From a virus, in the IMG/VR virus record IMGVR_UViG_3300020446_001785, positions 1-46,713 of that record: a stretch of 46,713 bases of DNA; one strand, 5' to 3'. Position 1 is the stretch's first letter; every line of letters starts with the position of its first letter. Below are positions 27,978 to 46,713 of the stretch, in pieces. The notes under the pieces are model-generated. The model was not told the origin of the DNA, searched no databases, and worked only from the letters and a program-made list of their open reading frames with translations. Both the position numbers and the translations under genes were made by a program.

Positions 27978-28198
27978 TGCAGGACGAACTTGATTTAAGA
28001 AGTTTGCAATTAGAAAGTGCTAGAGCACTACAAACAATGCAAGCAACCAATAATAATATACATCAATTTAATAAAAAAGCACATCATAATAGTCAGGACT
28101 GGTACAAAGCTGTGATTGAATGGTATGTAAATACATACGGAGATTTACCTAGTCGTGTAGGTCCCGGAAAAGAAGTAAAGTTGATATTAGACAAATGA
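27977..28198 (+). CDS. Small unknown protein, 73 aa, coupled to radical SAM gene
   Basis: A 73-residue protein with an amphipathic helical first half (LDLRSLQLESARALQTMQ), a polar Asn/His-rich linker, and a WYKAVIEWYVNTYGDLPSR segment followed by GPGKEV. It has no Cys and no membrane segment. It starts inside the previous stop and its own stop overlaps the start of the radical SAM gene (ATGA at 28195-28198). Position immediately before an rSAM enzyme makes an accessory subunit, chaperone or modified peptide conceivable. Nothing in the sequence proves any of these, and I do not recognise the family. Confidence 0.65.
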   Translation: MQDELDLRSLQLESARALQTMQATNNNIHQFNKKAHHNSQDWYKAVIEWYVNTYGDLPSRVGPGKEVKLILDK

Positions 28199-29142
28199 GT
28201 GATTTTGAATTAACAAAACTGCAAACAAATGTACCTTTTAAATCAATGACTTGGGTAGCCCATACATTTTGTAATTATAGTTGTGACTATTGTATTCCGG
28301 ATTTCTATGACGGAACATATAGATGGTTAAAAGATTACTCTCCTATATTAAAATTAATAAAAGAATTTAGGCAAGATAAGCCTTTGCGATTTGACATGAT
28401 GGGAGGTGAACCAACATTATGGCCAAAGTTTAAGGATTTTTGTACAGAGCTTAATGAAACAGGGGATAAAACTCTTATCACATATACAACTAATGGAAGT
28501 AGGACTATTAACTGGTGGAAAAGATACGATGCTCCTACATCAGAGGTAGGTATTACTTATCACCCTATTAGCGGCGCTGATATAAATCATATAATAGAAG
28601 TGGTAAAAATTTTATCAGACAAAGGTTATCGTGTAGTAATATGGCTTATGATGTTGCCTGTGCATTTCAAACATACTAAGAAAGTTTTTAAAAAAATTAA
28701 GAAGGATAAATTAAACTGCATTGCTATACCAAAATTAGTTTCTAATTGGCGTGATAGTAGTGGAGATTTACTATCTGGATACACTGAGGAGATGTTACAA
28801 TTTTGTAAAAAAAACAAATACAATAATTTAATATACCCAAAGCAGGAGGCTAAATTTTCACATAACTTATTGGGCTATGATCAATTCAATCATGAAAGGC
28901 AAGTTAATGTTCGAGAGCTTATAAGTACAAGGAAGAATTCATTTCGAGATTGGATGTGTGCAACCGGTATAGACTATATTGCACTGGAGGCAAACGGAGA
29001 TATATATGGTAGCCAATGTAAACATCATGGACTTTTAGGAAACATAAAAACAGGTTATATCTTACCCAAAGCTCCCCAAATTTGTCGAAGATCATATTGT
29101 AATTGTGGTAGTGATATAGAAATATACAAATATATAAAATAA
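28195..29142 (+). CDS. Radical SAM enzyme with C-terminal Cys-rich (SPASM-like) tail
   Basis: 315 residues. C26-x3-C30-x2-C33 (HTFCNYSCDYC) binds the SAM-ligating 4Fe-4S cluster and MMGGEPT (GGEP 70-73) is the SAM amino-group motif. TYTTNGSR is the usual strand-3 segment. The C-terminus (WMCATG, YGSQCKHHGLLGNI, then CRRSYCNC) carries further Cys, as in SPASM or twitch domains that hold auxiliary clusters. The same C-terminal pattern recurs in the rSAM gene at 43351, so the two are relatives. It is cytoplasmic and expected to generate a 5'-deoxyadenosyl radical. It is translationally coupled to the 73-residue gene upstream. The reaction is unknown. Confidence 0.88.
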   Translation: MSDFELTKLQTNVPFKSMTWVAHTFCNYSCDYCIPDFYDGTYRWLKDYSPILKLIKEFRQDKPLRFDMMGGEPTLWPKFKDFCTELNETGDKTLITYTTNGSRTINWWKRYDAPTSEVGITYHPISGADINHIIEVVKILSDKGYRVVIWLMMLPVHFKHTKKVFKKIKKDKLNCIAIPKLVSNWRDSSGDLLSGYTEEMLQFCKKNKYNNLIYPKQEAKFSHNLLGYDQFNHERQVNVRELISTRKNSFRDWMCATGIDYIALEANGDIYGSQCKHHGLLGNIKTGYILPKAPQICRRSYCNCGSDIEIYKYIK

Positions 29143-29153
29143 GAGAAAAAGAT

Positions 29154-29591
29154 ATGTCAATACATCAAGAATTTTGTAAAATAGATTTAGCAAAAACAGA
29201 TTATAAAATACAAAGCTATGCAAAATTACTTAGTGAAGAAGAAATAGATTCAAAATATATACAAAATATATATAAACAATATTGTAATTACAAAAAGTTT
29301 ACAAGTGTGATGCCATTATTTGATGTAGAATTTTTTGATAATGATATTATAGGATATTTTTTCGATGGAAAAATGGAAGCCTTTAGTATGATAGGTTTAT
29401 ATGATTCAGAAAATGCTGAATGTTATCAATTTGCATGGACCTATCATAAACCTGAATTAGAATTAGGAATCGAAAGTCTGAAGCATGAATGTGCATACTA
29501 TAAAAATTTAGGATATAAAAATTATTTTTTAGGTCCACCTGCCAATTATAAAAAAGCTATAGACGGATATGAAGTTTGTGGTCCTTTATAA
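29154..29591 (+). CDS. GNAT-fold protein resembling arginyl-tRNA-protein transferase C-terminus
   Basis: 145 residues. The second half (AWTYHKPELELGIESLKHE, then YYKNLGYKNYFLGP and NYKKAIDGYEVCGP) follows the pattern of the GNAT-like C-terminal domain of arginyltransferases (a LG..SL..E....k.lGy.yyyLG core then a YK motif). It lacks the N-terminal Cys-containing domain of true ATE enzymes. It may transfer an acyl or aminoacyl group to a phage-made product. It follows the rSAM gene by 11 bases with a GAGA-type site, and its stop abuts the stop of the minus-strand operon with no spacer. The GNAT fold is moderately supported; donor and acceptor are unknown. Confidence 0.6.
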   Translation: MSIHQEFCKIDLAKTDYKIQSYAKLLSEEEIDSKYIQNIYKQYCNYKKFTSVMPLFDVEFFDNDIIGYFFDGKMEAFSMIGLYDSENAECYQFAWTYHKPELELGIESLKHECAYYKNLGYKNYFLGPPANYKKAIDGYEVCGPL

Positions 29592-30095
29592 TTAACGTTC
29601 AACTACTTCACGATAATACTGATCAGACCAATTTTTATAATAATCTTTTTTGTAAAGAATTTTTCTTGCTTTGTTAAGTTTTTCCATTTCTTGTAAAAGT
29701 ATCAAAGCATAAGTTCCTTGATTTAGTTTATAGTCTAAGACTTTTTCTACCACATCTGGGTGATCTTCAAGTGCTATGAATCCTCTTTCTGTCAAAAATT
29801 TACTAGATGCAATCTCTACAGCATTGGTTAAATCATCACCTGAAATTAATTCTGGTTTACAGCCTAATACAATTACTTCTTTTCCTTTTGGCCAATGATA
29901 ACTGTAATTTTCTAATTCTGCTAAAAAGTATTCTTTCATAGTTAACCTAGATGCGTGTCTATTATCAAGTTCTTGTATTAGAATTTTATTGTTTACTAAT
30001 GCTTCTTTAGCAAAAGGACATGCAGGTAGGTTGTTAAACTCTGGCAGGTTAATGCTTAATCTATTAACAATCCATTCATTTATCTTAGATTCCAT
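29592..30095 (-). CDS. Unknown protein with CPFA motif (DUF1415-like), 167 aa
   Basis: Last gene of the three-gene minus-strand operon. I prefer ATG 30095 to an upstream GTG at 30110; it overlaps the preceding gene by 11 bases. The LPACPFAKEAL motif (residues 23-33), a central EVIVLGCKPELIS strand and a GFIALEDHPDVVEKV stretch recall the DUF1415 family, which also has a CPFA motif and no established function. The C-terminus is a charged helix with many Lys and Tyr (KARKILYKKDYYKNW). No membrane segment is seen. Coupling to the amidinotransferase suggests an accessory role on its substrate or product. The DUF resemblance is from memory and weak. Confidence 0.6.
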   Translation of the reverse strand: MESKINEWIVNRLSINLPEFNNLPACPFAKEALVNNKILIQELDNRHASRLTMKEYFLAELENYSYHWPKGKEVIVLGCKPELISGDDLTNAVEIASSKFLTERGFIALEDHPDVVEKVLDYKLNQGTYALILLQEMEKLNKARKILYKKDYYKNWSDQYYREVVER

Positions 30096-31296
30096 AGTCA
30101 ACTTGATCACCGTTACGTTTTATATCTAACGTAAGGCAATGCCAGCCACCGTCCCAAAAAAATCTATGTCTTAACGGACAAATTATAGGTTCAATTTGAT
30201 ACTTACGCAGATTTTCAAGTAAATGCGGATTTTCCGTGTTTACTACTACATGTTTACTATCAATTACTAAACAATTGACATCAAATATAGTTTCTTCTAC
30301 GTAACCTGTCCAGTTAGATATAAAACTTTCGACAAAATATGTAAATTCATCATTAGATTCTTCTTCAGGTACCCACCATTTTCCTTGATTTTTATGTTTT
30401 AGATCTTTCCAATGTTGTACTTTACCCCAATTAGGATCATCAAACCAGATGATATCCCAGCCTTCAAACAAATGTTTGTGCGGTTCTAAATCTTTGCTTG
30501 CAACCACTAGTCCTGGTTTTATCACACTAAACACAGAATCATTATGTCCGCCTATGGATAATTTTTTATAATTAAATTGTGGATATTGTTTTTCTAAAAA
30601 GTCTTCAACTACACTTGGCACCTGCCAAGTATCCACTAAACAAGTTTTTCCAATCCTTGTTAAATTAGGACTGCAAAAAGAAGATAGCATATAACCTTCA
30701 TCATTTTTATATTTTTCAATATTATCTTGTGTTGCTTCTATGTTATTTTTTCCAAGAAAGTTTTTTAAACTTCTGTCACTTCTAGCAAATTTAAATTTTC
30801 CGTCTTTAATATCACAGTCTATATTTTCTATTCCAAACCATTCAACATACTGAGGAAGCATCTTTCTTGTTGCAAATGTCCATGGATCCGTAGCTAAAAG
30901 TGTATTTCCCATCACTATACAATCGTCTCTCGGTTGCAGAGGCGGATTAGGTATTAAACTAGGACTTACACCAGTATTCCAAAAATTGTCCTCATTCTTT
31001 TCTTTATCATCGCCCACATTTTTTTTGTAGCCAATTTCGCCGTTTACGTTTACGTAATCTAAAATACTATTTTTGTAACCTAGTTTTTTGACATCAGGTT
31101 TGTATACTTTAATATTATGACTTTGCATAGTTTTTATAAAGTATTCTAAATCTTCATTTGTGTCATCTATTATTTTTTTTAAAGCGTCCCTAGCTTTGAT
31201 ATTTTTTACATCATTGAAAAAATCACTATCGTAACATGCGCCTACTACAAGTTCTTGTAGTGGCTGAAATTCGTCCCAACTGTTTATTCTATTCAT
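30085..31296 (-). CDS. Amidinotransferase-family enzyme (glycine amidinotransferase-like)
   Basis: 403 residues. The opening WDEFQPLQELVVG is the usual start of the amidinotransferase/arginine deiminase superfamily. RDDCIVMGN (about 123-131), IGGHNDSVFSVIKPGLVVAS (His251, Asp253) and GGWHCLTLDIKR (Cys387) match the catalytic His and Cys regions of arginine:glycine amidinotransferase. At the aligned position of its catalytic Asp (ADFIRAG) this protein has an Asn (N211 in PNLTRIG), judged by eye. In the family, Cys attacks the arginine guanidino carbon and passes the amidino group to an amine. It could thus make a guanidino-bearing intermediate. Length is family-typical. It overlaps both neighbours, so it is part of a minus-strand operon. 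Confidence 0.82.
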   Translation of the reverse strand: MNRINSWDEFQPLQELVVGACYDSDFFNDVKNIKARDALKKIIDDTNEDLEYFIKTMQSHNIKVYKPDVKKLGYKNSILDYVNVNGEIGYKKNVGDDKEKNEDNFWNTGVSPSLIPNPPLQPRDDCIVMGNTLLATDPWTFATRKMLPQYVEWFGIENIDCDIKDGKFKFARSDRSLKNFLGKNNIEATQDNIEKYKNDEGYMLSSFCSPNLTRIGKTCLVDTWQVPSVVEDFLEKQYPQFNYKKLSIGGHNDSVFSVIKPGLVVASKDLEPHKHLFEGWDIIWFDDPNWGKVQHWKDLKHKNQGKWWVPEEESNDEFTYFVESFISNWTGYVEETIFDVNCLVIDSKHVVVNTENPHLLENLRKYQIEPIICPLRHRFFWDGGWHCLTLDIKRNGDQVDYGI

Positions 31297-31618
31297 CTGG
31301 ATAATCCCTATATAAAAAGTGCTGTATTGTGTTTACATCCACTAAATGATTAAATCCTACATGTTCATCTTCAATATTTTCTTCGTTACTTATTACACTA
31401 GACATAGCATCATCTAATTGTTGCATATTTTGAAAATGCATATCAATTCTAAATTCAGGCATATTCATAGATCTAAAACCTAATTTCATGCGGGATAACC
31501 TGTAGCTTTCTATTCTTCCCAAATCTACCATTTTATCTAGGAATTTTTTCATACGTATAGCAAAGGTCTTAGCATTAGTATCAAGTGTGTGATCTGCATA
31601 AATGGTGTATATATCCAT
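31289..31618 (-). CDS. Small alpha/beta protein (DUF6614-like), 109 aa
   Basis: First gene of the minus-strand operon, overlapping the amidinotransferase gene by eight bases. The pattern (start YTIYADH, helix to KMVDLGRIESYRLSRMKLGF, strand PEFRIDMHF, helix QQLDDAMSSV, end FLYRDYPDE) matches small ferredoxin-like dimeric alpha/beta proteins. From memory it resembles DUF6614 (RLTRRKLGF, YRDFPD). Function of that family is not established to my knowledge. An AATAAATA octamer lies 32 bases upstream. It may be a small partner of the amidinotransferase. Confidence 0.65.
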   Translation of the reverse strand: MDIYTIYADHTLDTNAKTFAIRMKKFLDKMVDLGRIESYRLSRMKLGFRSMNMPEFRIDMHFQNMQQLDDAMSSVISNEENIEDEHVGFNHLVDVNTIQHFLYRDYPDE

Positions 31619-31675: not shown

Positions 31676-32695
31676 ATGTTAAACATGGCTTGGGATTCAG
31701 TGTCTTTATTGAGAACACACAAAACGAAAATAGTAAAACAAGTTATGGCAGGAATGTCAAATATATCCCCTGATATACCAGGTGAAAAATGTAGCAGAGA
31801 TTTAAATTATATTTTAACAGCTATTGCAGATTGTTTAGAATCCAATAATCAAAAATCATTAATGTATGTAATAAAAAATTATTTTAGAGGTGGAAAATTA
31901 CGTCTACAAAGCGTTGATTTAGAAATACAAGCATATGGTATTACAGAAAATATAATTCATAATTTATTTGATAGATACAAGATAGATACTTTATATAAAC
32001 AAAAAGTAACAGATTGTTTTGATGTGATCAAAGAAAATTTTAAAAATGGTTACACTGATACTACTTATCCTGATAATAATTGGACACAGATGTTAGAAGC
32101 TAAAAAGCAGTGTGCCACATGGAGTGATAAAAAAGTCGATAAAGAATATATAGATAGTATACTAGATGATATACATAAACACTGTAATAGTAAACAAAAT
32201 AAAGTGCCTTATGAAATAAAAGTAATGGATTGGTCTAATCCCGAACTGCGTGATTTGCTTTTCCGCCATGCTCGCGACGAAGAAACTCCTGAAGGTAAAA
32301 TTAATACACATTTTAATACGCAAGTGCTGGCTCCTTATGTGCTTTTATTTTTTGAAAGAGATGACGAAACATATGAGAGAGATGTGCTACATAAAATTTC
32401 TAATTTAGAAATAGGTTTATCTCTACAAATAGCAGCTCTTAGTGCAGTATCTAAAGGCTTGAGCATAGGTTTTTGTAAATGTTTTAATGATAAAGATAGA
32501 AATGAATTCCACAAAAAATTTAATGTCCATAGTTCTCCTAGTGTTGTTCTCGGAATTGGATATTATAAAGAATCAGACACACAAATTAATCCATATACAA
32601 ATGTAGAGTACACATCATCAATTAGCACATCAGATCTTGACAAAGAACAGTGGCACATTAAACCAGCAATGAAAGATTATATTACATATGTATAG
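31676..32695 (+). CDS. Nitroreductase-like protein with N-terminal virion-type domain
   Basis: 339 residues. Residues about 32-100 (KCSRDLNYILTAIADCLES, YVIKNYFRGGKL) resemble a 'C.RD..yI.dAi..DL..g.n' module that recurs in structural proteins of T4-like marine phages. From about 147 the pattern changes to a nitroreductase-like fold: WSDKKVDKEYIDSIL, PYEIKVMDW, the helix LEIGLSLQIAALSAVSKGLSIGFCKCF, and VVLGIGYY. In that family FMN binds at a dimer interface and NAD(P)H-dependent reduction or dehydrogenation follows; the usual Ser-Arg at the FMN site is not obvious. A GGAG site (31669-31672) is three bases before ATG 31676; ATG 31685 is an equally plausible start. It overlaps the next rSAM gene by eight bases. 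Confidence 0.6.
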   Translation: MLNMAWDSVSLLRTHKTKIVKQVMAGMSNISPDIPGEKCSRDLNYILTAIADCLESNNQKSLMYVIKNYFRGGKLRLQSVDLEIQAYGITENIIHNLFDRYKIDTLYKQKVTDCFDVIKENFKNGYTDTTYPDNNWTQMLEAKKQCATWSDKKVDKEYIDSILDDIHKHCNSKQNKVPYEIKVMDWSNPELRDLLFRHARDEETPEGKINTHFNTQVLAPYVLLFFERDDETYERDVLHKISNLEIGLSLQIAALSAVSKGLSIGFCKCFNDKDRNEFHKKFNVHSSPSVVLGIGYYKESDTQINPYTNVEYTSSISTSDLDKEQWHIKPAMKDYITYV

Positions 32696-33776
32696 ATATG
32701 AAGACATTCGTGTTATTCATTTAGAAAACACACAAAATTGTCAAGCAAATTGTCCTATGTGTGACCGGAACATGAACGGAAAGGGCATAAATCCTCATAT
32801 TGATTTGAGTGAACTCAGTGTCGATGATTGCAAACGTATATTTGAACCTAGTTTTATAAAACAACTACACACTATGTATATGTGCGGTAATCTAGGAGAT
32901 CCTATTGTAGCAAAAGATACTTTAGAAATATTCCGTTACTTTAGAGACTGTAATGAAGACATATGGCTTGGTATGAATACCAATGCTGGTGCCAAAAAGG
33001 CAGAATGGTGGAAAGAACTTGCAAAAGTATTTGGCAAAAAAGGTAGTGTCATTTTTAGTGTTGATGGTCTTAAAGATACAAATCACATTTATAGGCAAGG
33101 TGTAAACTGGAATGCAGTTGAAAGAAGCATGAAAGCATTTATATCTGCCGGAGGCAGAGCACGTTGGGACTTCTTAATATTTGAACACAACGAGCATCAA
33201 GTTGAAGAAGCTAGAGCTCTAGCAAGTTCTTGGGGTGTTGAAAGATTTACAATAAAAAAATCTGCAAGATTTGTTACAAAAGATATGCAGAAAAAACAAG
33301 AACACCAAGCAGTAAGTAAAAAAGGTTCCAATACTGCAAAAATTAAAGAAACAAAAGAAAAAAAATATCAAAATAAAGAATTAAATAAATTTACAAAGAA
33401 TGCAACTAAAAAATTTGGAGATATTAATAGTTATTATGACCTTGCTGAAATAAGTTGTAAATCAAAAAGAGATAACGAACTTTTTATTTCAGCTGAAGGT
33501 TTAGCACTACCATGTTGTTGGACAGCCGGACGTATGTATAAGTGGTGGCATGAAGATCCTAAGATTGAACAAATTTGGAATTTTATAGATGCTGTAGGCG
33601 GTAAAGATGCAATTAGTGCTAAGAAACACGGGCTACGCACAGTTTTCAAAACTGGTATATTTGATAACATAGCATCTAGTTGGGGTAAGTCAAGTTGTTC
33701 AGATGGCAAATTAAAAGTATGTAGTATGAAGTGCGGCAAAGAGTTTGATCCGTTTACAGCACAGTTTAGTAAATAA
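32688..33776 (+). CDS. Radical SAM enzyme with C-terminal SPASM-like domain (GxxxDP variant)
   Basis: 362 residues. NCQANCPMC gives C18-x3-C22-x2-C25 for the SAM cluster. Where GGEP is expected there is CGNLGDP (66-72). A TNAG strand and FSVDGLKDTNHIYR complete the core. The C-terminal part has C257, CCW at 276-278, C337, C345 and C349, a SPASM-like auxiliary cluster set. Residues 198-242 are an unusual Lys/Gln-rich polar insertion between core and SPASM region. Related closely to the next gene (same FSVDGL/FSIDGL and DTNH motifs). Coupled by an eight-base overlap to the nitroreductase-like gene. Enzyme class is firm, substrate unknown; a peptide substrate would be family-typical. Confidence 0.88.
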   Translation: MYRYEDIRVIHLENTQNCQANCPMCDRNMNGKGINPHIDLSELSVDDCKRIFEPSFIKQLHTMYMCGNLGDPIVAKDTLEIFRYFRDCNEDIWLGMNTNAGAKKAEWWKELAKVFGKKGSVIFSVDGLKDTNHIYRQGVNWNAVERSMKAFISAGGRARWDFLIFEHNEHQVEEARALASSWGVERFTIKKSARFVTKDMQKKQEHQAVSKKGSNTAKIKETKEKKYQNKELNKFTKNATKKFGDINSYYDLAEISCKSKRDNELFISAEGLALPCCWTAGRMYKWWHEDPKIEQIWNFIDAVGGKDAISAKKHGLRTVFKTGIFDNIASSWGKSSCSDGKLKVCSMKCGKEFDPFTAQFSK

Positions 33777-33786: not shown

Positions 33787-34848
33787 ATGCATTACTTAGC
33801 TAAACCGTTAACAATACAATTAGAAATAAGTTCCAACTGTAATTTGTGTTGCACAGGTTGTTGTCGTGTAGATAATGATACATATGACATTAAACCTAAT
33901 GAATACATTCCAAAAAATAAATTTTTAGATATAGATAAGTTTAAGTCTGTATTAGATGATCCAATGGGCACCCATTTTAAGAAAGTAGAATTTTGTGGAA
34001 CAATAGATGATCCTTTAATGCACCCTAAATTTTTAAATTATTTAGAATTGTTAAACGAAAAACAAATATCATGTCAAGTTCATACAAATGCAAGTCTTAG
34101 AACACCAGATTACTGGAAAGAAATAGCCTATCTAACAAAAAAGAATCCACATTCCATGGTAAAATTTAGTATTGACGGATTACATGATACAAATCATTTA
34201 TATAGAAGAGGATCTAATTGGGAAAAAATAATGGAAAACGCTCAAGCATTTATAGATGCTGGAGGTCGAGCATGGTGGCAATACATTGTTTTTGATTGGA
34301 ATAAACATCAAGTAGCTCTTGCTAGAAAACTAGCAAGAAAGATGGGATTCGATGCCTTTAAGTACAGGCATGACAGATCCTGGTCACCTAGTTCTGAGGA
34401 AGCAAAAAAAATATTTGAAACAACGTCTCCCAAAAAATATACTAAATTAAAACATTATTGGCGAGCAAGGGCAGAAAAAGTTAATCCTATAGCAAATTTA
34501 GAAATAAATTGTTTCGCACAAGAAGAAAAATATTATTTTATAGGTCATAATGGAGAAGTTTGGCCATGTTGTTTTTTAATGAATGCTAATTGGTCTCCTT
34601 TAGTACATGCACCACAATATAGACAAAGATTCATAGATAATTACGGAAAAAACTGGAATAATATTTATTATAGAACTTTTAGTGAAATATTAAACTCAGA
34701 TTTTTATTCTGCAGATTTAGTAGACAGTTGGAAAAGTAGAGAACATGGAGTAAAATGTAAAGATAGATTAATACGTTGTACCGAAACTTGCAGTGTTAAA
34801 AAGAGAAATGCAAATCCTATAGGAAATCATGAAACATTAACGTTTTAA
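33787..34848 (+). CDS. Radical SAM enzyme with C-terminal SPASM-like domain (second GxxxDP variant)
   Basis: 353 residues. SSNCNLCCTGCC gives C18-x3-C22-x2-C25 with two additional neighbouring Cys (21, 26). CGTIDDP (70-76) replaces the GGEP motif, as in the preceding gene. FSIDGLHDTNHLYRRGSNW and FDWNKHQV parallel FSVDGLKDTNHIYRQGVNW and FEHNEHQV there, so these are tandem paralogues. The Lys-rich insertion of the paralogue is absent. C-terminal Cys at 242, 261, 262 and a final C...C...C set (KCKDRLIRCTETC) suggest auxiliary clusters. Its stop overlaps the end of the minus-strand PLP-enzyme gene by 12 bases (convergent). Confidence 0.88.
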   Translation: MHYLAKPLTIQLEISSNCNLCCTGCCRVDNDTYDIKPNEYIPKNKFLDIDKFKSVLDDPMGTHFKKVEFCGTIDDPLMHPKFLNYLELLNEKQISCQVHTNASLRTPDYWKEIAYLTKKNPHSMVKFSIDGLHDTNHLYRRGSNWEKIMENAQAFIDAGGRAWWQYIVFDWNKHQVALARKLARKMGFDAFKYRHDRSWSPSSEEAKKIFETTSPKKYTKLKHYWRARAEKVNPIANLEINCFAQEEKYYFIGHNGEVWPCCFLMNANWSPLVHAPQYRQRFIDNYGKNWNNIYYRTFSEILNSDFYSADLVDSWKSREHGVKCKDRLIRCTETCSVKKRNANPIGNHETLTF

Positions 34849-35682
34849 AGCCCGCAATAAAGGACGCACTCCTACTGGTTTTCCTTGTTTTGTTTTAGCT
34901 AAATGTATTGCTTTTGTTGCAAGCAAATCAAAATCTTTTATAACTTTTTGATATTCACTATCATATTTTTTCCAAAAGTATTCAGTGCCAAAATTATCTA
35001 TAAAATTTATCCCCATACTTACTAATGCTTGACTATTCATGTTGAAATCGTTCATAATTGTAACAGCACCAGTAGGTTTATTTCGTGAAAATCTAACTCC
35101 TATTCTGTTTCCGCCCATTCCGCCTTTGCTTAAACTAACTCCAAAAGTTTCAACAGCAGGGTGATCAAAATTAAATTCTATGTCTCTAATACAGCTAATC
35201 CAAGCTCCGTCAATATGCACAGGTATTTTTAAGCTATTACATTTATCTAAAATATCATTCATCGAAGGATGTATATCGCCGAAATATGGAAAGGGCATAC
35301 TAATTAATAATTCCTTTGATTTTTGTAGATTATTTAAATTACTATATACTAGCTGATTATTTAATCTCCAATGATACTTGTAATCGTTTTCAAATATTTG
35401 TAAGTCACCGCATCTTTGATATAAATCGTCTATGTATTGTGTACAACCGTTTATAATATCTAATCTGTCAAATGCTTCTATGCCTTTAAATTTGCTTAAA
35501 GTGTGATTTTTAAGCCAATTAACAAATTTATTTTTAAAAATTTCATCTAAATTACTTGTGTGTACAGGATTTTTTTGATAGAAATTATCATAAAATTTGT
35601 TGATATCATTATCATACATAGGTTGCGGTCTAGTATGTTGCAACCATTCTTTTGTGTACTTTCTATCTGTACTGTCTCTCAT
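34837..35682 (-). CDS. Short PLP-dependent aminotransferase-like protein (fold type I)
   Basis: 281 residues from ATG 35682 (290 if the upstream ATG 35709 is used). VHIDGAW carries the Asp (D158) that contacts the PLP ring nitrogen, and SLSKGGMGGNRIGVRF carries the Schiff-base Lys (K186) and phosphate-binding Arg, as in class I aminotransferases. The upstream MPFPYFGDIHPSM stretch fits the substrate loop. At 281 residues it is about 100 short of the usual 370-420, and little follows the PLP-Lys region, so the small C-terminal domain is reduced. I chose ATG 35682 because a late-type octamer sits exactly five bases upstream. It is antisense to neighbouring rSAM genes and could aminate a keto-sugar or keto-acid intermediate. 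Confidence 0.75.
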   Translation of the reverse strand: MRDSTDRKYTKEWLQHTRPQPMYDNDINKFYDNFYQKNPVHTSNLDEIFKNKFVNWLKNHTLSKFKGIEAFDRLDIINGCTQYIDDLYQRCGDLQIFENDYKYHWRLNNQLVYSNLNNLQKSKELLISMPFPYFGDIHPSMNDILDKCNSLKIPVHIDGAWISCIRDIEFNFDHPAVETFGVSLSKGGMGGNRIGVRFSRNKPTGAVTIMNDFNMNSQALVSMGINFIDNFGTEYFWKKYDSEYQKVIKDFDLLATKAIHLAKTKQGKPVGVRPLLRALKR

Positions 35683-35687
35683 GATAA

Positions 35688-39335: not shown

Positions 39336-40623
39336 CACATTTTGCATTATGCCGTTTGTGCATCAAAATTTAAAACAAGAGGGAAGAGTCACAGCCTGTT
39401 GGAGAGCTCAAGGTGATTTAGGAAATAGCACACATGATAGCCTTTTACAAATTTTCAACAGTAACGAAACCAAGGAACTTAGAAGAGCTTTGCTAAATGG
39501 AGAAAGACCAGAAGGATGTAGAAGTTGTTGGGATACAGAGAATGCAAATATAGAAAGCACCAGACAACAATGTTTAACAAATTGGAAATTTGAAAATGAA
39601 AAAATTAATTTTGCTGACGGAGCAATGGGAAGCAATACAGATAATACAATTAATTTAGAAAAGTATGTAAGACAAAATATAAAAGAGGATTACAGTTATC
39701 CTGTTAATAATTTAAAAAGTATAGAAGTTAGATTTGATAACATATGTAATTTGATGTGTAGACATTGTAGTCCTGTATATAGTAGTCTCTGGGAAAAAGC
39801 TGTGAAAAAAATGCCTAGCATGCAAGAAGCTTCGGGAGGCAAACGCAGAGAAACTACACACATTAGTTTGACGGAAAATATAGTAAACGAAATAGAGTTA
39901 CTTGCTCCAAGTTTGCAAGAAATATTAATTACAGGAGGAGAACCTTTATATCATACGAAACATTATGATTTTTTAAAAAATTTAGAACCATATGCAGAAA
40001 ATATTATTCTTAATTACAATTCAAATTTTACAACTTTAGAATATGCAGGTAAAAGTATACTTCCTTTATGGAAAAAATTTAAAAAGGTTGGAGTATTAGT
40101 AAGTTTAGATGCTTGTCCTGATATATATCCTTATGTTAGAGTGTACGGAAAAATAGATAAAGTTGAAAAAAATATTAAAACTGCTTTACAAGAATTACAT
40201 AATATAAATTTGCAATCAACTTGTACTACAAGTGTTCTAAACATAACGAGATTAGTTGATGTTTTCAAATATTATGTATCATTACGTACAGGAGTGCATA
40301 CTAGTATTGTACAATATCCTAGCCCACTTAATCCTAGGGTTTTGCCAAAAGCTATCAAAGACAAAGCTACAATTGAATGGGATCAATTCTGTAATCAACT
40401 TGATTCATTTATAGACTCTCAAGATATAAGTGAAAAATTTAAAGATTATTACAAACGACGTTTGCCTAAAGTAGGCGGAAAAATGATAAAATATATGAAT
40501 TCAAGAGACGAATATGATCCTGGATGGAAAAGTTTTATTGAATTTGCAAAAATTCAAGATACCTATCATAAAACAAATATACTAGACTATTATCCAGAAT
40601 TTACGGAGTATTGGGATGCCTAA
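39322..40623 (+). CDS. Twitch-type radical SAM enzyme 4 of 6
   Basis: 433 residues from ATG 39322, preferred over the in-frame GTG at 39307 because FCIMPFVH then lies at the family-typical distance from the N-terminus. Cys8, Cys26 (single, ACWRAQ, where others have CC), Cys66 and Cys69 (CRSCWDTE) form the twitch region. NICNLMCRHC gives C142-x3-C146-x2-C149. ITGGEPLYHT has GGEP at 205-208, and LVSLDACPDIYPYVR is a variant core strand. It starts 14 bases inside its predecessor and overlaps the next gene by eight bases. Confidence 0.88.
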   Translation: MERSNTFCIMPFVHQNLKQEGRVTACWRAQGDLGNSTHDSLLQIFNSNETKELRRALLNGERPEGCRSCWDTENANIESTRQQCLTNWKFENEKINFADGAMGSNTDNTINLEKYVRQNIKEDYSYPVNNLKSIEVRFDNICNLMCRHCSPVYSSLWEKAVKKMPSMQEASGGKRRETTHISLTENIVNEIELLAPSLQEILITGGEPLYHTKHYDFLKNLEPYAENIILNYNSNFTTLEYAGKSILPLWKKFKKVGVLVSLDACPDIYPYVRVYGKIDKVEKNIKTALQELHNINLQSTCTTSVLNITRLVDVFKYYVSLRTGVHTSIVQYPSPLNPRVLPKAIKDKATIEWDQFCNQLDSFIDSQDISEKFKDYYKRRLPKVGGKMIKYMNSRDEYDPGWKSFIEFAKIQDTYHKTNILDYYPEFTEYWDA

Positions 40624-41920
40624 TACATTTTGTCCAATTCCTTGGAACTTTCAAGCTGTCCAAAACAACGGTACTGTCCGTGTATGCTGTCAAATGAATA
40701 TGACACTTAGTAGAGGCACATTGTTTAAAGAAGATGGTAGTCCTTACAATGCAGGGACAGATGATCTTAAAAAAGCTAGAAACGCAAAACTTATTAAAAA
40801 TGTTAGAAAAGACATGTTAGAAGGAAAGTGGCCTAATGAATGTATGAGGTGTAAACAAGAAGAAGAAAGTGGATTACGAAGCAGAAGAATTTATGAAAAT
40901 GAAGCTTGGAATTTAAATCTACATCAGGCTAAGGAATTTACTGACGCAGACGGAACAATAGATGATGAAAAGTATCCATTGGTATATTATGATTTACGTT
41001 TTGGCAATTTGTGCAATTTAGCTTGTAGAATGTGTGGTCCCGAAGATAGTCATACATGGTACAAAGATTGGGCAAAAATGTATGGTACTGAATGGGAAGA
41101 CACACATGGAAAAGTAAAATTAGAAAAAAATAAAAAAGGTAGATGGGTGACTGATGCTTATGACTGGCACTACAGCACAAAATTTTGGAATCATATAGAA
41201 TCTAATTTAAAAAACATAGAACATGTTTATATGGCCGGCGGAGAGCCCTTAATGATAGAAAGGCATTATGAATTCTTACAAAAATGTATAGATGCAAATG
41301 TAGCAAAAAATATTGTAATTGAATACAATACCAATTTGACTAATATACCTCCAAAAGTTTTACCTCTATGGGAAAAGTTTAAAAATATAAGAGTAGGAGC
41401 AAGTATAGACGGCATAGGCGATGTTTTAGAATACCAGAGGTATCCTGCTAAATGGAAAGCTATAGAAAAAAATATGAAACTATTAGACTCTATGCCAGAT
41501 AACATTTCTGCTTGGATAGCCTGTACAATCACAAATATAAATGTATATCATATTACAGAATTCATTGAATGGATTGTAAATCAAAATTTTAAAAAAATAA
41601 ATTCTGGCAAAACAAAAATACTAACGCATCATGTGTGTCATAAGCCCTGGTATAGTAGTGTAAGAGTTTTACCAAAAAATATTAAAAATGATATTTTAAA
41701 TCATTACGAAGTTTGGAAACAAAAAAATAATTTTAAAGATGAAAAAATCAGTACACGATCTCACGCAATACTGGACAGTATAAGTAAGTATATGTTAGCA
41801 AAAGACGAAGAGAACAAGCTCGAAAATTTTGTTACCTATACAAAAGAATTAGATATATTGCGTAATCAAAATATTTTAAACATTGTACCACAATACGAGG
41901 AGTTATTTTGTGACAACTAA
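40616..41920 (+). CDS. Twitch-type radical SAM enzyme 5 of 6
   Basis: 434 residues. Cys6 (FCPIPW), Cys24-25 (VRVCCQM), Cys76 and Cys79 (CMRCKQEEESGLRSRR) make a full twitch motif. RFGNLCNLACRMC gives C133-x3-C137-x2-C140. YMAGGEPLM has GGEP at 208-211; IEYNTNLT and GASIDGIGDVLEYQR follow. Closest of the six to the sixth member by eye (same RFG...C, YMAGGE / YFAGGE and WHY/WHK segments). Overlaps its predecessor by eight bases and the next gene by 11. Confidence 0.9.
   Translation: MPNTFCPIPWNFQAVQNNGTVRVCCQMNMTLSRGTLFKEDGSPYNAGTDDLKKARNAKLIKNVRKDMLEGKWPNECMRCKQEEESGLRSRRIYENEAWNLNLHQAKEFTDADGTIDDEKYPLVYYDLRFGNLCNLACRMCGPEDSHTWYKDWAKMYGTEWEDTHGKVKLEKNKKGRWVTDAYDWHYSTKFWNHIESNLKNIEHVYMAGGEPLMIERHYEFLQKCIDANVAKNIVIEYNTNLTNIPPKVLPLWEKFKNIRVGASIDGIGDVLEYQRYPAKWKAIEKNMKLLDSMPDNISAWIACTITNINVYHITEFIEWIVNQNFKKINSGKTKILTHHVCHKPWYSSVRVLPKNIKNDILNHYEVWKQKNNFKDEKISTRSHAILDSISKYMLAKDEENKLENFVTYTKELDILRNQNILNIVPQYEELFCDN
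41897..41902 (+). promoter_or_regulatory. Strong Shine-Dalgarno deciding a GTG start
   Basis: GAGGAG lies seven bases before GTG 41910 and selects it over the in-frame TTG at 41883. Confidence 0.7.
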
Positions 41921-43316
41921 ATACCCTTCAGATACATTTTGTTTATTACCCTGGGTACATTTAAGCACACGTCCTGATGGAAGCATGCGAGTATGTTGCA
42001 CAGCTAACGCAAGTTCAGTAGGTGCAACAAACGACAAAGCACATGGCGGCCAAGTCGGTATTTTAAAAACTTCTGATGGGAAACCTAACAATTTAAATGT
42101 AAGTGATTTTGAAAGTGCTTGGAATAGCGATTATATGAAAAACGTCCGTTTACAAATGTTAAACGGTGAACAACCTCCGAGTTGTTTAAAATGTTACAAA
42201 GAAGAAGCCGCAGGACATAGAAGTAAAAGACAATGGGAAACACATTACTGGAGTCAACGTGTAGATCTTGATAAAATATTAGCTGATACACAACCAGACG
42301 GACAAGTGCCTCCTAATCTTGCGTATATAGATTTACGGTTTGGAACCAAATGTCAACTAGCATGTGTTATGTGTAGTCCACATGACAGCAGTGGATGGAT
42401 AAAAGATTATAAAAAGATTTTTCCTGCTGTTAAAAATGAATCTTTAAAAGAAATAATGCAATGGAAAGATAAAGGATCTACCAACGGTAGTAGCTATAAT
42501 TGGCATAAACAAAATCCTATATTTTGGAAACAATTTTATGAACAAATGCCTAGTATGCAACAAATATATTTTGCAGGAGGTGAAAGTTTAATTATTGAAG
42601 AACATTATGAAATATTAGAACATGCAATCAAAATGGGATATGCAAAAGATTTAGAGTTGAGATATAATTCTAATGGAGTAGAATGGCGTGATGATTTATT
42701 TGAACTATGGAGTCATTTTAAATTAGTACGTTTTCACTATAGTATTGACAGTATTAAAGAAATGAATGATTATATTAGGTATCCAAGTGATTGGGCAAAC
42801 CAAGTCAACACTTTTCATAGGTTAGATAACGAAACAACTAATAATGTAGAAGTTACTATTGCATGTGCAGTACAGGCGTTGAATATATACTATTTGCCAG
42901 ATCTAATTCAATGGAAACTCGAACAAAATTTTAAAAAAATTAACATGTGGCCTTTTGGTGCAGGAGGTATTAGTCAACATTTTGTTTATTGGCCTGGGCA
43001 TCTAAATGTAAAAGTATTGCCAGAATGGTTTAAAAAAGAATGCCATAGGAAATACGAAAATTGGTATCCTTGGTGGGAAAAGAATTGGGAACTGGGTGTG
43101 CCTAGTTGGCATAAGGGTAAAATTAGTTATGATCAATGGCGTAGTGCAGAATACGGAATCAAACGGTTAGAGGGAATATTAAGTTTCGCAGATAGCGAAG
43201 ATTGGAGTAGGCGCTTACCTGAAATGCAAGAATTTTTAGGACTTTGTGATAAGCAACGTGGTATAACATTTGCAGATACATTTCCTGAAATGAAAGATAT
43301 TTTTAAAGATATTTAA
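41910..43316 (+). CDS. Twitch-type radical SAM enzyme 6 of 6 (GTG start)
   Basis: 468 residues from GTG 41910, the longest of the six. Cys11 (FCLLPWVHLS), Cys29-30 (MRVCCTA), Cys92 and Cys95 (CLKCYKEEAAGHRSKRQ) give a full twitch motif. FGTKCQLACVMC gives C148-x3-C152-x2-C155. YFAGGESLI has GGES at 223-226, and RFHYSIDSIKEMNDYIR is the core strand. The C-terminal part is rich in Trp (WYPWWEKNW, VPSWHKG). The start overlaps the previous stop by 11 bases. A sigma70-type promoter begins in the base after its stop, so the six-gene run ends here. Confidence 0.9.
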   Translation: MTTKYPSDTFCLLPWVHLSTRPDGSMRVCCTANASSVGATNDKAHGGQVGILKTSDGKPNNLNVSDFESAWNSDYMKNVRLQMLNGEQPPSCLKCYKEEAAGHRSKRQWETHYWSQRVDLDKILADTQPDGQVPPNLAYIDLRFGTKCQLACVMCSPHDSSGWIKDYKKIFPAVKNESLKEIMQWKDKGSTNGSSYNWHKQNPIFWKQFYEQMPSMQQIYFAGGESLIIEEHYEILEHAIKMGYAKDLELRYNSNGVEWRDDLFELWSHFKLVRFHYSIDSIKEMNDYIRYPSDWANQVNTFHRLDNETTNNVEVTIACAVQALNIYYLPDLIQWKLEQNFKKINMWPFGAGGISQHFVYWPGHLNVKVLPEWFKKECHRKYENWYPWWEKNWELGVPSWHKGKISYDQWRSAEYGIKRLEGILSFADSEDWSRRLPEMQEFLGLCDKQRGITFADTFPEMKDIFKDI

Positions 43317-43345: not shown

Positions 43346-43350
43346 AAATT

Positions 43351-44466
43351 ATGAACGAAGATTTAAAATGGAGTAATTATGATTTTTCAAAAATACCGTT
43401 TGACGACATTATTAAAGTCGGCCAAAGGACGCTTTTATACAGAGATCTTTTTACTGTTAGTTGGCTTCTTGGTCGCTTTTGCAACTATCGTTGTAGTTAT
43501 TGCTGGCCATACGCCAGATCAGATCGTAAAGATCACAGGCCAACAGAGCTCTGTCTTCTTACAATCGATGAGATAAAGAGACAAGCCCGTGCTAATGGTT
43601 TTAACAGTTTTCATTTTTCTTTATCTGGGGGTGAGCCTACTTTCCATCCAGGATACTTGGACATCCTTAGGCATTTGGCTTCTGATGTCAGCAACACTAA
43701 TTATACTAGTATCCACATGACATCTAATTGTTCAAGACCTGTAAAATGGTTTGAACAATATGTTGAATATGCAAAACCTTTTCATAGAGCAAGTATTACT
43801 GCTAGTTTACATGTTGAACATGTTAACACAAAAGAAAAAATGCAAGAGTTCGCTGACAAATTAATATTATGTCAAGAACATGATGTACAAGTAACAATTA
43901 ATCAGGTTATGGTTCCAGAACATTTTGAAAGGGACTGGGAAAATGCTCTCTTCTTTCATGAACAAGGAATCAATGTTACACTAAAACCACAATCAGATCC
44001 TACAGCATCACGAGTAGTTGATGGGTACAAAGACGAAGACCTTAAAAGACTATGGAATGGTATGCCACAACGAGCTTACACAGAAAGTAAACGTAAATTT
44101 GTAAACCGTCCTAAACCTACATTTGAACTGCCTAAAGATATAATGGGCAAAAATGATGCTAGTGTGCCTTGGCATATGCAGGTAGAATTAAAAGATTCTA
44201 ATGATAAAAAGTGGTATATGGACCAAGCAGAACGGTTTAATGCCTTTAATTTTAACAATTTCGAAGGATGGGCATGTAACGCCGGTTACAGCGGAATAAT
44301 AATACGGGAGCCTGACGGTTCGGTAAAACGTAGCTATTCTTGCCATGATGCACCTCTTGGTAACATTGAAACAGGTTTTCAGCTATTTAAGACACCTAAA
44401 ACGTGTATAACGAAAAGTTGTGTATCTAGTGCAGATAGTAAAATACCTAAGAGGAAAATTATATGA
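43351..44466 (+). CDS. Radical SAM enzyme with C-terminal Cys-rich tail, own promoter
   Basis: 371 residues. GRFCNYRCSYC gives C44-x3-C48-x2-C51 and LSGGEPT (GGEP 93-96) the SAM motif; MTSNCSRP follows. The C-terminus (WACNAG, SYSCHDAPLGNIETG, CITKSC) parallels the tail of the rSAM gene at 28195, so these two form a subfamily separate from the twitch array. The first ~110 codons use CTT, CGT/CGC, GCC and GAG more than neighbours, which prefer TTA and AGA, suggesting separate origin or recombination. No Shine-Dalgarno sequence precedes ATG 43351 and no earlier in-frame start exists after the upstream stop. Its stop overlaps the next gene (ATGA). Confidence 0.87.
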   Translation: MNEDLKWSNYDFSKIPFDDIIKVGQRTLLYRDLFTVSWLLGRFCNYRCSYCWPYARSDRKDHRPTELCLLTIDEIKRQARANGFNSFHFSLSGGEPTFHPGYLDILRHLASDVSNTNYTSIHMTSNCSRPVKWFEQYVEYAKPFHRASITASLHVEHVNTKEKMQEFADKLILCQEHDVQVTINQVMVPEHFERDWENALFFHEQGINVTLKPQSDPTASRVVDGYKDEDLKRLWNGMPQRAYTESKRKFVNRPKPTFELPKDIMGKNDASVPWHMQVELKDSNDKKWYMDQAERFNAFNFNNFEGWACNAGYSGIIIREPDGSVKRSYSCHDAPLGNIETGFQLFKTPKTCITKSCVSSADSKIPKRKII

Positions 44467-45203
44467 AAATAGGTTTGTTTGGTGATAGCTTTGCATGTAA
44501 ACAAATGCGGACTCATAAAAGATATGAAGGACATCCAGGATTTACAAAAATAGGAAAACCTTGGTTTGAGTACTTGCCTTATGAAATTACAAGTTTCGGA
44601 GCATCAGGTAGTGATTTATATTACAGTTATAATCTCTATTTAGAAAATAGACATAAGTTTGATAAAAATATTTTTATTGCTACTGATCCTGGTAGATTAA
44701 GTATAAAAAATTTAAAGGATACATACCTACACTATAATCACCATGTTATTGCAGAAAAGCATAAAACTAGAACAGGCGGATTCGAAGCTGATTTTTTAGA
44801 TAGTGTAATTAGATACTTTAAGCATATTTTAGATTATGATAAAGAAGTAAAAATTTGTCAACTTATAAAAAATGATATAAAGCAAGATAAGAGTTGTTTG
44901 CTAGTAGACGGATTTGGACCAGATGGACTTGTAAATCTTTTTCAAATGGAAAATAAAATTTGGGATATACAATTTAAAAATAATCATAATCCAAAAATTA
45001 GAGATTTTCGCTACTGCCATATGACTGAACCTAATAACATTATCTTTGCAAAACAAATACAAGATTGTTTAGAAAATAATAAGCAGTTTGTATTTGAATT
45101 GACAAAATTCGTAAAGCCTTCTATGGATGACAAAAACAGATATATATTTAATACAGAAGATTTAGAGGTTTGGTTAGGAGATATAGATGGCAGAAGAATA
45201 TAA
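44463..45203 (+). CDS. SGNH-hydrolase-like protein (GDSF type), 246 aa
   Basis: 246 residues. GLFGDSF (D8, S9) at the N-terminus is block I with the nucleophile Ser, and FGASGSD (45-51) fits block II Gly. FIATDP resembles block III. RYCHMTEPNN carries a His (H186) where block V has its catalytic His, but the usual Asp three residues earlier is Arg, with D181 five residues earlier instead. The family are esterases or acyltransferase-like enzymes acting on acyl groups of sugars or lipids. No signal peptide, so it would act in the cytoplasm. It starts within the rSAM stop with an AGAGGA site. Confidence 0.68.
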   Translation: MKIGLFGDSFACKQMRTHKRYEGHPGFTKIGKPWFEYLPYEITSFGASGSDLYYSYNLYLENRHKFDKNIFIATDPGRLSIKNLKDTYLHYNHHVIAEKHKTRTGGFEADFLDSVIRYFKHILDYDKEVKICQLIKNDIKQDKSCLLVDGFGPDGLVNLFQMENKIWDIQFKNNHNPKIRDFRYCHMTEPNNIIFAKQIQDCLENNKQFVFELTKFVKPSMDDKNRYIFNTEDLEVWLGDIDGRRI

Positions 45204-45852
45204 TGAGTTGAATCATGACGAAGAATGTTGGTTACCTAAAGCAAAAGATATAAGTGTATGGCATTTTGATAAATGGAAAGTAGACAAACCTGAAGATGTA
45301 TATACAGATGTATGTACATTTGATTTAGATTTCACAGAGGATGTCAAAAAAGCATTAGAACATATTGTAACAACAAAAATACCTGACAGACATTATGAGT
45401 TCTGGGAAGAACTTGGTCACCCTTTTCAATTCCACTACACAGATTCAACAAGAAAGTTAAAATATTCTGAATATCCTACGTTCAAAACTATTGTAGAACA
45501 TCTAGGACTTGTGGAACATCCTGACTTTGATATTAAAGTCAAATTGTTTAGACAAAAACCTGGACAATTTCTACCATCCCATATAGATAATTTTAAAAAA
45601 TCAAATGAAGATGAAGTACGACCAATGGCTTATAATGCTAAAAGGTTTGCTGTAGCCTTAGAAGATTGGGATTTTGGCCAGTATTGGCATTTTGGAAATG
45701 CATTTTGGCATCAGTGGAAAAAAGGTAATTGCGTACATTGGCATAGAACTATGGCACACGGCACTGCTAATGTTGGCCACAGTAATAGACATACTTTACA
45801 AGTTACAGGAATACCTTCTGCAAAAACCGAAGCACTTTTGAATAAGAATTAA
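45187..45852 (+). CDS. 2-oxoglutarate/Fe(II) oxygenase-like (aspartyl hydroxylase-type) protein
   Basis: 221 residues. FLPSHIDN supplies the HxD pair (H132, D134). MAHGTANVGHSNRHTLQVTG supplies the distal His (H191) and an Arg ten residues on (R201) that would bind 2-oxoglutarate, a layout typical of the aspartyl/asparaginyl-beta-hydroxylase-like branch. KLFRQKPGQ before HxD is the strand that precedes the metal site. In this family Fe(II), O2 and 2-oxoglutarate hydroxylate a substrate. It overlaps the SGNH-like gene by 17 bases. A hydroxylation step on the product is a reasonable guess; the substrate is unknown. Confidence 0.78.
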   Translation: MAEEYNELNHDEECWLPKAKDISVWHFDKWKVDKPEDVYTDVCTFDLDFTEDVKKALEHIVTTKIPDRHYEFWEELGHPFQFHYTDSTRKLKYSEYPTFKTIVEHLGLVEHPDFDIKVKLFRQKPGQFLPSHIDNFKKSNEDEVRPMAYNAKRFAVALEDWDFGQYWHFGNAFWHQWKKGNCVHWHRTMAHGTANVGHSNRHTLQVTGIPSAKTEALLNKN

Positions 45853-45886
45853 CTGGTCATATAATTATTTAGGCAAAAAAATGCAC

Positions 45887-45894
45887 GGTAAATA
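45887..45894 (+). promoter_or_regulatory. Weak late-type octamer, 5 bases before ATG
   Basis: GGTAAATA is followed by TACAT and then ATG 45900, the same spacing as at 35709 and 35688. Its match to TATAAATA is only six of eight. This could be chance in AT-rich DNA. Confidence 0.25.
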
Positions 45895-45899
45895 TACAT

Positions 45900-46713
45900 A
45901 TGAGTCTAAAAATCCTTATATCACAACCTAATCTCTACGATTCTAAGGTTTTCATGCCATTAGTTTTTTTATGTCTCAAAACCTATGTGGATAAAAGAAC
46001 TGATGTAAGTCCTGTTACGTGGTTAGATCCTTTATTCAGAAATACAGATTGTAATACTATGTTAAAAGACGTAGATACTAAAAATGTAGACATATTAGGA
46101 TTAAGCTGTTATGATTGGAATTGGAGTTTACAGTTACAAATAGCAAAACAAGTTAAACAGGATAATCCTAATGTGCTTGTAGTAGCTGGAGGACCGCATC
46201 CTGATTGGAAAGACAAAGACTTTTTCAAAAAATATCCACAGATCGACATTGTAGTATACAATGATGGGGAAAGACCGTTTGCAGAAATTGTAAAAGCTGT
46301 TCAAAACGGAACTAATTTTGATAAAATAGATAATTTAATCATGCCGCATTTAAAAACTCCTCCTAGTGATTTATTTAAAGAGTTTGATGTCAGTCCTTGG
46401 TTGGAAAATAAACAATGGGTATTAGATTTTAAGAAAAAGTATATTGACAACGGAAAAAATAAACAGTTTACGCTTTTATGGGAAACAGATAGGGGCTGTC
46501 CGTTCAAATGTGCGTTTTGTGATTGGGGTAGTGCAACAAATAGCAAAGTTAGAAGATATCCCGAAGACAGAATTAGAAAAGAAATAGACTTTTTTACAGA
46601 AGAATTAGGTGTAGATGTGCTTTATCATGTTGGAGCCAATCTAGGTATCTTTCCAAGAGACTTAGAATTTGTAAAATATATTTGTGAAAAGAAAAAAGAG
46701 ACTGGATTTCCTA
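45900..46713 (+). CDS. B12-binding-domain radical SAM enzyme (3' end outside window)
   Basis: The frame is open to the window end, so at least 271 residues are present. ATG 45900 starts KILISQP. Residues 58-135 have the B12-binding-domain pattern (VDILGLSCYDWNWSLQL, VVAGGPHPDW, DIVVYNDGERPFAEI), without the classic DxHxxG base-off motif, as is usual for this rSAM class. DRGCPFKCAFCDWG then gives C200-x3-C204-x2-C207. Enzymes of this class include cobalamin-dependent C- and P-methyltransferases and others that build rings or methylate unactivated carbons. Upstream context (hydrolase, oxygenase) fits a late tailoring step. The reaction is unknown and the C-terminus is not visible. Confidence 0.85.
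   Translation, partial: MSLKILISQPNLYDSKVFMPLVFLCLKTYVDKRTDVSPVTWLDPLFRNTDCNTMLKDVDTKNVDILGLSCYDWNWSLQLQIAKQVKQDNPNVLVVAGGPHPDWKDKDFFKKYPQIDIVVYNDGERPFAEIVKAVQNGTNFDKIDNLIMPHLKTPPSDLFKEFDVSPWLENKQWVLDFKKKYIDNGKNKQFTLLWETDRGCPFKCAFCDWGSATNSKVRRYPEDRIRKEIDFFTEELGVDVLYHVGANLGIFPRDLEFVKYICEKKKETGFP

Follow-up and report, generated by a model that had tools for sequence, protein, structure and literature searches.

A constant radical SAM gene core and an exchangeable cassette in a tail-side island of uncultivated aquatic phages, with core counterparts in Bdellovibrionota chromosomes

The 46,713-nucleotide virus sequence analyzed here (positions 1 to 46,713 of IMG/VR record IMGVR_UViG_3300020446_001785; hereafter the window) carries eleven radical S-adenosylmethionine (rSAM) enzyme genes, numbered R1 to R11, in one island (Table 1). 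Comparative analysis revealed that three of them (R2, R9, and R10) recur across phage loci in constant order, together with a glycosyltransferase-like gene (GT530), a methyltransferase-like gene (MT279), and a small helical protein (o73), and that the rSAM-rich cassette accompanying them varies from phage to phage. The same core, lacking o73, is found in chromosomes of Bdellovibrionota, a phylum of predatory bacteria. We consider it very probable that the island combines one functional core with exchangeable tailoring genes.

To define the core, we compared 211 IMG/VR loci retrieved with R9, amidinotransferase, and R10 anchors; these loci were chosen by anchor genes and annotated by simple gene calling, and several represent overlapping stretches of one contig. 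The constant order was GT530-MT279-o73-R2...R9...R10. Among the 131 loci anchored on R9 or the amidinotransferase, the recurrent genes were R2 (107 loci), R9 (104), MT279 (85), o73 (79), GT530-type genes (at least 56), and R10 (52). R2, R9, and R10 followed one another on one strand in 34/34 loci spanning all three, and o73 lay upstream of R2 in 69/69 loci. The independent R10 anchor recovered R9 in 22 of 24 large records, with R10 present as a single copy in all 24. The search for a conserved gene set and order in related phages, suggested by an initial annotation of the window, thus yielded R2-R9-R10 with GT530, MT279, and o73.

Sequence comparison across phages revealed median amino acid identities of 0.83 for R9 and 0.82 for R10, with synonymous differences saturated in both (pS 0.72 and 0.80; 56–61% of fourfold sites different). 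Such high protein identity despite saturated synonymous sites indicates an old core held by strong purifying selection, and rejects recent transfer as the source of the similarity. In three loci (L040, L042, and L043) the R10 open reading frame (ORF) has an aberrant N-terminus without CxxxCxxC, as observed in L040 (R10 at L040:14028-15053); a frameshift or an interrupted gene is the suggested cause.

The eleven CxxxCxxC rSAM proteins reported in the initial annotation are all present. A PF04055 search of the whole record returned exactly 11 matches (E = 4e-17 to 2e-7), the motif occurs in 11/11 ORFs, and the ORF starts agree with those originally listed, 39322 and 41910 being internal ATGs of slightly longer ORFs. 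Because all eleven match PF04055 or B12-rSAM models, with full-length R1 to R10 all above the Pfam cut-off for PF04055, chance motif matching is ruled out. The proteins fall into four groups: R4 to R9, six head-to-tail "twitch" rSAMs of NF033640 (246–420 bits versus a cut-off of 170); the paralogues R2 and R3 (29% identity, BLAST E = 3e-34); the paralogues R1 and R10 (BLAST E = 7e-18); and R11, of the B12-binding type. R1, R2, R3, and R10 scored under the 170-bit cut-off for NF033640. Genes of the island mostly overlap or lie a few bases apart.

Catalytic residues of the core are conserved in phage and cellular orthologues alike. R9 retains CxxxCxxC plus C11, C29, C30, C92, and C95 (at least 98%; eight invariant cysteines), R10 retains the motif plus C309, C331, C352, and C357 (at least 98%), and R2 retains it plus C66, C257, C276, C277, C345, and C349 (nine cysteines at 98% or more). 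By sequence pattern, these are radical-cluster and auxiliary-cluster ligands. With their ligand cysteines intact, R2, R9, and R10 should be active, which supports real rSAM chemistry on the iron-sulfur point raised in the initial annotation. An A-type iron-sulfur carrier is encoded in 6/18 large records, consistent with an earlier report (PMC5332604).

A genome scan with R9 matched mainly Bdellovibrionota metagenome-assembled genomes (MAGs), at 51–60% identity. Across 22 cellular loci, several of them cut at contig ends, R2-like genes were found in 18, R10-like in 16, GT530-like in 10, and MT279-like in 8. GT2 glycosyltransferases of two distinct families occurred in 6 loci each. Among 192 Bdellovibrionota genomes, R9 was detected in 11, R10 in 11, and both in 10 of the 12 that had at least one (E ≤ 1e-90); the pair lay within ~4 kb on one contig in all 10 shared genomes, an overlap with a hypergeometric probability of 8e-15 when relatedness is ignored. 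GT530, upstream of o73/R2 in phages, lies beside R9 in 10 Bdellovibrionota loci. The scattering of homologues without conserved neighbours, which the initial annotation considered fatal to a common pathway, therefore does not apply to the core.

Phylogenetic trees placed Bdellovibrionota and marine phages largely apart. The marine phage clade of the R9 tree is nested among Bdellovibrionota branches, with an uncertain root, and this topology makes a cellular origin of phage R9 possible. Five "cellular" matches (L132, L147, L148, L151, and L152) carry phage-type islands or have an R9 nesting with phages, and look like phage contigs inside MAGs. The Bdellovibrionales MAG contig L157 combines fib317-o111-GTa-GTb-GT530-like genes with an R9 and an R10 of Bdellovibrionota type, and is perhaps a phage of Bdellovibrionota linking both groups. 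By eye, the flanks of the core comprise Tad-pilus-like and ordinary metabolic genes in L149, where the core reads GT530-R9-R10-R2, and MoxR-type and SppA-like genes in L138; in L134 and L139, several rSAMs have membrane proteins nearby that resemble HTTM/gamma-carboxylase-like proteins, an assignment likewise made by eye.

The cassette shows the opposite behavior to the core. The R2–R10 interval held 25 distinct gene sets in 34 loci, and of its 103 gene clusters, 45 of them rSAM, a single one was present in a majority of the loci. Among phage pairs with 85–97% R9 identity, 57–67% had no cassette cluster in common, and the number of PF04055 genes per whole record ranged from 4 to 21. Parts of the cassette are shared as blocks: the PLP290-R4 pair moves as a unit (L018, L056, L067, and L151), and the R3-PLP-R4-R5-R6-R7-R8 block of the window also occurs in L011/L081 and L083–L085, and partially in L086, L089, and L090. 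The AMT403-o172-gnat145-DUF6614 module is likewise found in phages without this core, among them phages with another rSAM complement and others with no rSAM nearby (L093–L131), and the amidinotransferase-anchored scan ruled out this enzyme as a core member. This module (29154–31618) could constitute a guanidino-compound pathway of its own.

Cassettes of relatives also hold O-carbamoyltransferase, UDP-sugar dehydrogenase, QueC/PP-loop-like, Asp/Asn-hydroxylase, and B12-rSAM proteins. One core-bearing phage encodes a NodU-type O-carbamoyltransferase (L071:2719-4248; PF16861, PF02543). QueC/PP-loop-like ATPases adjoin the rSAM core in L134 (7627-8730) and in phage clusters c10, c39, c49, and c101, the phage proteins carrying a C-terminal cysteine motif.

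As initially annotated, the island lies downstream of tail fibers. In the window, tail-fiber-like genes follow the marker gene bp204. R9 shares the strand of bp204 and lies 16–50 kb downstream of it in 15/15 records holding this marker. Three fiber-like proteins (671, 644, and 502 residues) at 16511–22004 share a related N-terminal region, forming a duplicated fiber set. The giant protein encoded upstream is closest to the jumbo-phage virion proteins of Atu_ph07, Phosso, and PA5oct, and the best matches listed include neither a pelagiphage nor a cyanophage; this relationship suggests a phage other than a typical pelagimyophage. The downstream flank in L180/L175 encodes an HNH endonuclease and an ATPase besides unknown proteins; the neck gene gp14, which together with VrlC borders the pelagimyophage host recognition cluster, was not located.

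This setting resembles the host recognition cluster of pelagimyophages, a large variable island beside the tail fibers of large marine phages in which glycosyltransferases and rSAM cassettes distinguish related genomes (PMC7029224); the window island, too, is variable and adjoins the fibers on the tail side of the structural module. Unlike the window island, no constant rSAM core, gene order, o73, or cellular counterpart appears in the portion of that report considered here. The T4-like environmental genome TARA_ERS488813_N000010 contains a similar number of rSAM genes (12) plus iron-sulfur assembly genes; that study counted iron-sulfur genes and proposed no gene set, order, or function (PMC5332604). 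A Tasman Sea survey listed rSAMs and glycosyltransferases among the main auxiliary metabolic genes (PMC7150976). NF033640 (N_Twi_rSAM), whose cut-off R4 to R9 far exceed, is a family without an assigned reaction, and R1, R2, R3, R10, and R11 belong to other subfamilies. R1, R9, and R10 share weak, generic rSAM similarity with prokaryotic viperins (pVip), and we rejected this identity on scores of 32–40 bits (27–42 overall) versus the 180-bit NCBIfam equivalog cut-off and at most 42 bits with the PADLOC pVip models. The PADLOC scan revealed no defense family apart from generic pVip and weak chance-level matches.

Searches of 50,697 deposited phage records, among which near relatives of the window genome may be missing, returned no match for R10, o73, or GT530 and no R9 orthologue; R9 had two weak matches (24.5% identity over half its length) and R2 one (23% identity). 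Our literature search turned up no account of this core, of the order of its genes, or of its occurrence in Bdellovibrionota. The suggestion of an undescribed system appears to hold for the core, while large rSAM numbers (PMC5332604) and host-recognition cassettes (PMC7029224) in marine phages had been published. Many marine-phage rSAMs have so far been treated as dispersed auxiliary metabolic genes; in this island they form an organized system of a constant, strongly selected core and a swappable cassette. Orthologues of R9, R10, o73, and GT530 are missing from roughly 50,000 deposited phage records despite hundreds of contigs from the environment, an imbalance suggesting that cultivation has overlooked a widespread group of phages and a chemistry with it.

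Our preferred, still tentative reading is a modular pathway in which the constant rSAM core and the exchangeable cassette make or decorate a glycan or surface structure. R2, R9, and R10, with their auxiliary iron-sulfur sites, would act with GT530, MT279, and the phage-only helper o73 to make or modify one common building block by successive radical steps, the likeliest candidate being a sugar or a residue linked to one. The cassette would add variant groups through further twitch rSAMs, the pyridoxal phosphate (PLP)-rSAM pair, the amidinotransferase module, 2-oxoglutarate (2OG) oxygenases, and the nitroreductase-like enzyme, as would carbamoyltransferase and PP-loop enzymes in relatives. Enzymes of the GT530/GTa/GTb type may then link the block to a tail fiber or the host envelope, and in Bdellovibrionota to the cell envelope. 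Swapping the cassette would change surface chemistry around a fixed core, the pattern one would expect of a trait that serves host recognition or shuts out competing phages. Substrate, product, attachment site, and benefit are what we infer rather than observe.

Several observations point toward a glycan: GT2 families and GT530-like genes accompany the core in Bdellovibrionota, relatives encode UDP-sugar dehydrogenase and O-carbamoyltransferase, and fibers and glycosyltransferase-like genes lie upstream. A glycan is favored over a peptide because the core is repeatedly accompanied by glycosyltransferases, in phages as well as in cells, cassettes contain sugar-type tailoring enzymes, and no precursor peptide was found; it is favored over DNA modification because tRNA-guanine transglycosylase (TGT) is absent. 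Of the products initially proposed (small molecule, glycan, or protein decoration), context hence favors glycan or surface decoration, short of proof. Other results weigh against this reading. GT530, GTa, and GTb had no significant Pfam or PDB match. Tail-fiber markers were within reach in only 15/48 loci with at least 5 kb of upstream sequence. The closest solved relative of R9, albeit weak, is the peptide-modifying rSAM SkfB, which would suit a peptide. Finally, the cellular core loci derive from MAGs, and the absence of o73 from Bdellovibrionota leaves part of the phage island without a cellular counterpart.

The strongest competing explanation, though an unlikely one, is a secreted or intracellular small molecule directed against competitors or toward host reprogramming, with the rSAM core building an amino-sugar, cyclitol, or modified amino acid scaffold that the cassette diversifies. 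The toolkit does resemble aminoglycoside and nucleoside-antibiotic tailoring (StrB1, BlsE, TobZ-type carbamoyltransferase), in which the same amidinotransferase, PLP, carbamoyltransferase, and rSAM classes act on sugars or cyclitols: the amidinotransferase is related to StrB1/HsvA/SxtG, a PLP enzyme and an O-carbamoyltransferase occur, nitroreductase-like, 2OG, and PP-loop enzymes are present, and the only PDB relative of R2 is the sugar-nucleoside enzyme BlsE. However, the homology is distant, no sugar-nucleotide or cyclitol pathway was identified in the window, no dedicated exporter, resistance, or assembly-line gene was identified among annotated neighbours, and the recurrent neighbours are glycosyltransferases and tail genes.

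Somewhat less probable still is modification of a phage structural protein (fiber or giant protein), of o73, or of a precursor of a ribosomally synthesized and post-translationally modified peptide (RiPP). Peptide modification is the classical role of SPASM/twitch rSAMs, R9 weakly matches SkfB, and o73 is small, conserved, and adjoins R2. Yet 222 small ORFs (20–110 residues) from 16 Bdellovibrionota core loci yielded 0 clusters common to any two loci, these loci lack o73, and o73 is predicted to be a compact helical domain rather than a leader plus core. Window proteins scanned with Pfam/NCBIfam gave no RiPP recognition element (RRE)/PqqD domain match. The missing shared precursor and RRE leave a RiPP cluster unsupported, although the target may be encoded elsewhere.

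Two further possibilities are very improbable. A 7-deazaguanine-like DNA or nucleobase modification against restriction, combining QueC-like and QueE-like chemistry, would draw on the QueC/PP-loop-like proteins recurring in relatives and L134 and on the weak QueE/viperin-type similarity of R1/R10, but the TGT/DpdA family was absent in 18/18 large records (14/14 control genomes positive) and the same core sits beside glycosyltransferases in bacterial chromosomes. A pile-up of auxiliary metabolic genes that share no pathway, in a hypervariable region prone to recombination, would suit the cassette variability (117 rSAM clusters, 41 singletons across all 131 loci) and is possible for individual cassette genes, but is contradicted for R2-R9-R10 by the fixed order, by protein conservation in the face of saturated synonymous sites, and by the independent finding of these genes together in Bdellovibrionota. 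The multistep common pathway initially envisaged for the eleven rSAMs accordingly survives for R2, R9, and R10 and fails as a fixed eleven-step route, the remainder being exchangeable and the amidinotransferase module separable.

Taken further, and with slightly more reserve than the modular glycan pathway itself, the data may describe a previously unreported biosynthetic system that Bdellovibrionota share with abundant, uncultivated phages of aquatic habitats. In it, three rSAMs of ancient origin (the R2-R9-R10 core, with GT530/MT279) would supply one shared, unusual building block, and a hypervariable, rSAM-rich cassette would diversify it into a chemically variable surface trait for recognition or exclusion, a radical-chemistry counterpart of O-antigen loci with constant core and variable cassette. 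If so, phages would produce a broad, hitherto unrecognized family of surface chemistries built by radical reactions. The four-gene Bdellovibrionota core of L149 offers a tractable handle on substrate and reaction.

Table 1. Features of the window (id, identity).
Feature	Positions	Strand	Description
Giant virion protein (5256 aa)	102..15872	+	Related to jumbo-phage virion structural proteins; upstream of fibers
bp204 (phrog_11259)	15893..16507	+	Tail-region position marker; adjoins giant protein
GT530	25562..27154	+	Two-domain glycosyltransferase-like, DGD motif; core neighbour
MT279	27138..27977	+	SAM-methyltransferase-like, Rossmann-like motifs; core neighbour
o73	27977..28198	+	73-aa helical protein, constant in marine-type phage island; ~75% id
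R1	28195..29142	+	rSAM, R10 paralogue, variable cassette; PF04055 41 bits
gnat145	29154..29591	+	Small conserved enzyme, amidinotransferase module, GNAT-like by eye; beside AMT in 42 loci
o172	29592..30110	-	Conserved unknown, amidinotransferase module; phrog_10325/28122; adjoins AMT
AMT403	30085..31296	-	Amidinotransferase-like; H251/C387 catalytic region invariant (alignment A5)
DUF6614 protein	31289..31618	-	Amidinotransferase module; PF20319 2.5e-21
NTR339	31676..32695	+	Nitroreductase-like; PF00881 9e-4, under cut-off
R2	32688..33776	+	Core rSAM; SPASM-like C-terminal cysteines
R3	33787..34848	+	rSAM/SPASM, R2 paralogue, cassette; PF04055 + PF13186
PLP290	34837..35709	-	Fold-I PLP-enzyme-like; usually paired with R4
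R4	35722..36909	+	Twitch rSAM NF033640, cassette; 299.7 bits
R5	36896..38041	+	Twitch rSAM NF033640, cassette; 245.7 bits
R6	38031..39335	+	Twitch rSAM NF033640, cassette; 298 bits
R7	39322..40623	+	Twitch rSAM NF033640, cassette; 307.9 bits
R8	40616..41920	+	Twitch rSAM NF033640, cassette; 392.9 bits
R9	41910..43316	+	Core twitch rSAM NF033640; 420 bits; 80-92% id in IMG/VR
R10	43351..44466	+	Core rSAM, 4-Cys C-terminal auxiliary site; 74-91% id in IMG/VR
SGNH-like protein	44463..45203	+	GDSF motif by eye; no Pfam match
OG221	45187..45852	+	Asp/Asn-hydroxylase-like 2OG oxygenase; PF05118 0.0027, under cut-off
R11	45900..46712	+	B12-binding-type rSAM, truncated at window end; best model KedN5 family, 2.6e-38

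The enzyme labels first given to the neighbouring genes fared unevenly. Those of the amidinotransferase and the PLP enzyme were borne out by profile or invariant residues, although neither AMT403 nor PLP290 has a Pfam match: the AMT403 profile matches HsvA, GATM, StrB1, and SxtG across the catalytic GG.HC.TLD..R motif, the catalytic cysteine of the GATM/StrB1 superfamily (GGxxHCxTLDxxR) being present as invariant C387, and PLP290 has the invariant Asp/Lys pair (D167/K195) of fold-I PLP enzymes. The nitroreductase, 2OG oxygenase, and methyltransferase labels are weak; OG221-like-looking proteins of other loci do exceed the PF05118 cut-off, and MT279 conserves Rossmann-type motifs. The labels of gnat145, the SGNH-like protein, and two short glycosyltransferase-like genes reflect motifs seen by eye, with no Pfam support.

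PDB sequence searches with R10, PLP290, and GT530 matched nothing, and that with MT279 gave only meaningless matches (E ~0.1–0.5). GT530 relatives show weak GT2-type Pfam similarity only; a stray MT279 row (L087:2698-3633) in alignment A8 may weaken the GT530 PDB and Pfam searches. AlphaFold2 (AF2) modeled o73 as a helical bundle (mean predicted local distance difference test [pLDDT] 87), for which a fold search gave no meaningful match (best E = 1.2), and R10 with a mean pLDDT of 60.8 and a poor C-terminal part. A GDSY protein in the Bdellovibrionota locus L139 resembles the SGNH-like protein of the window.

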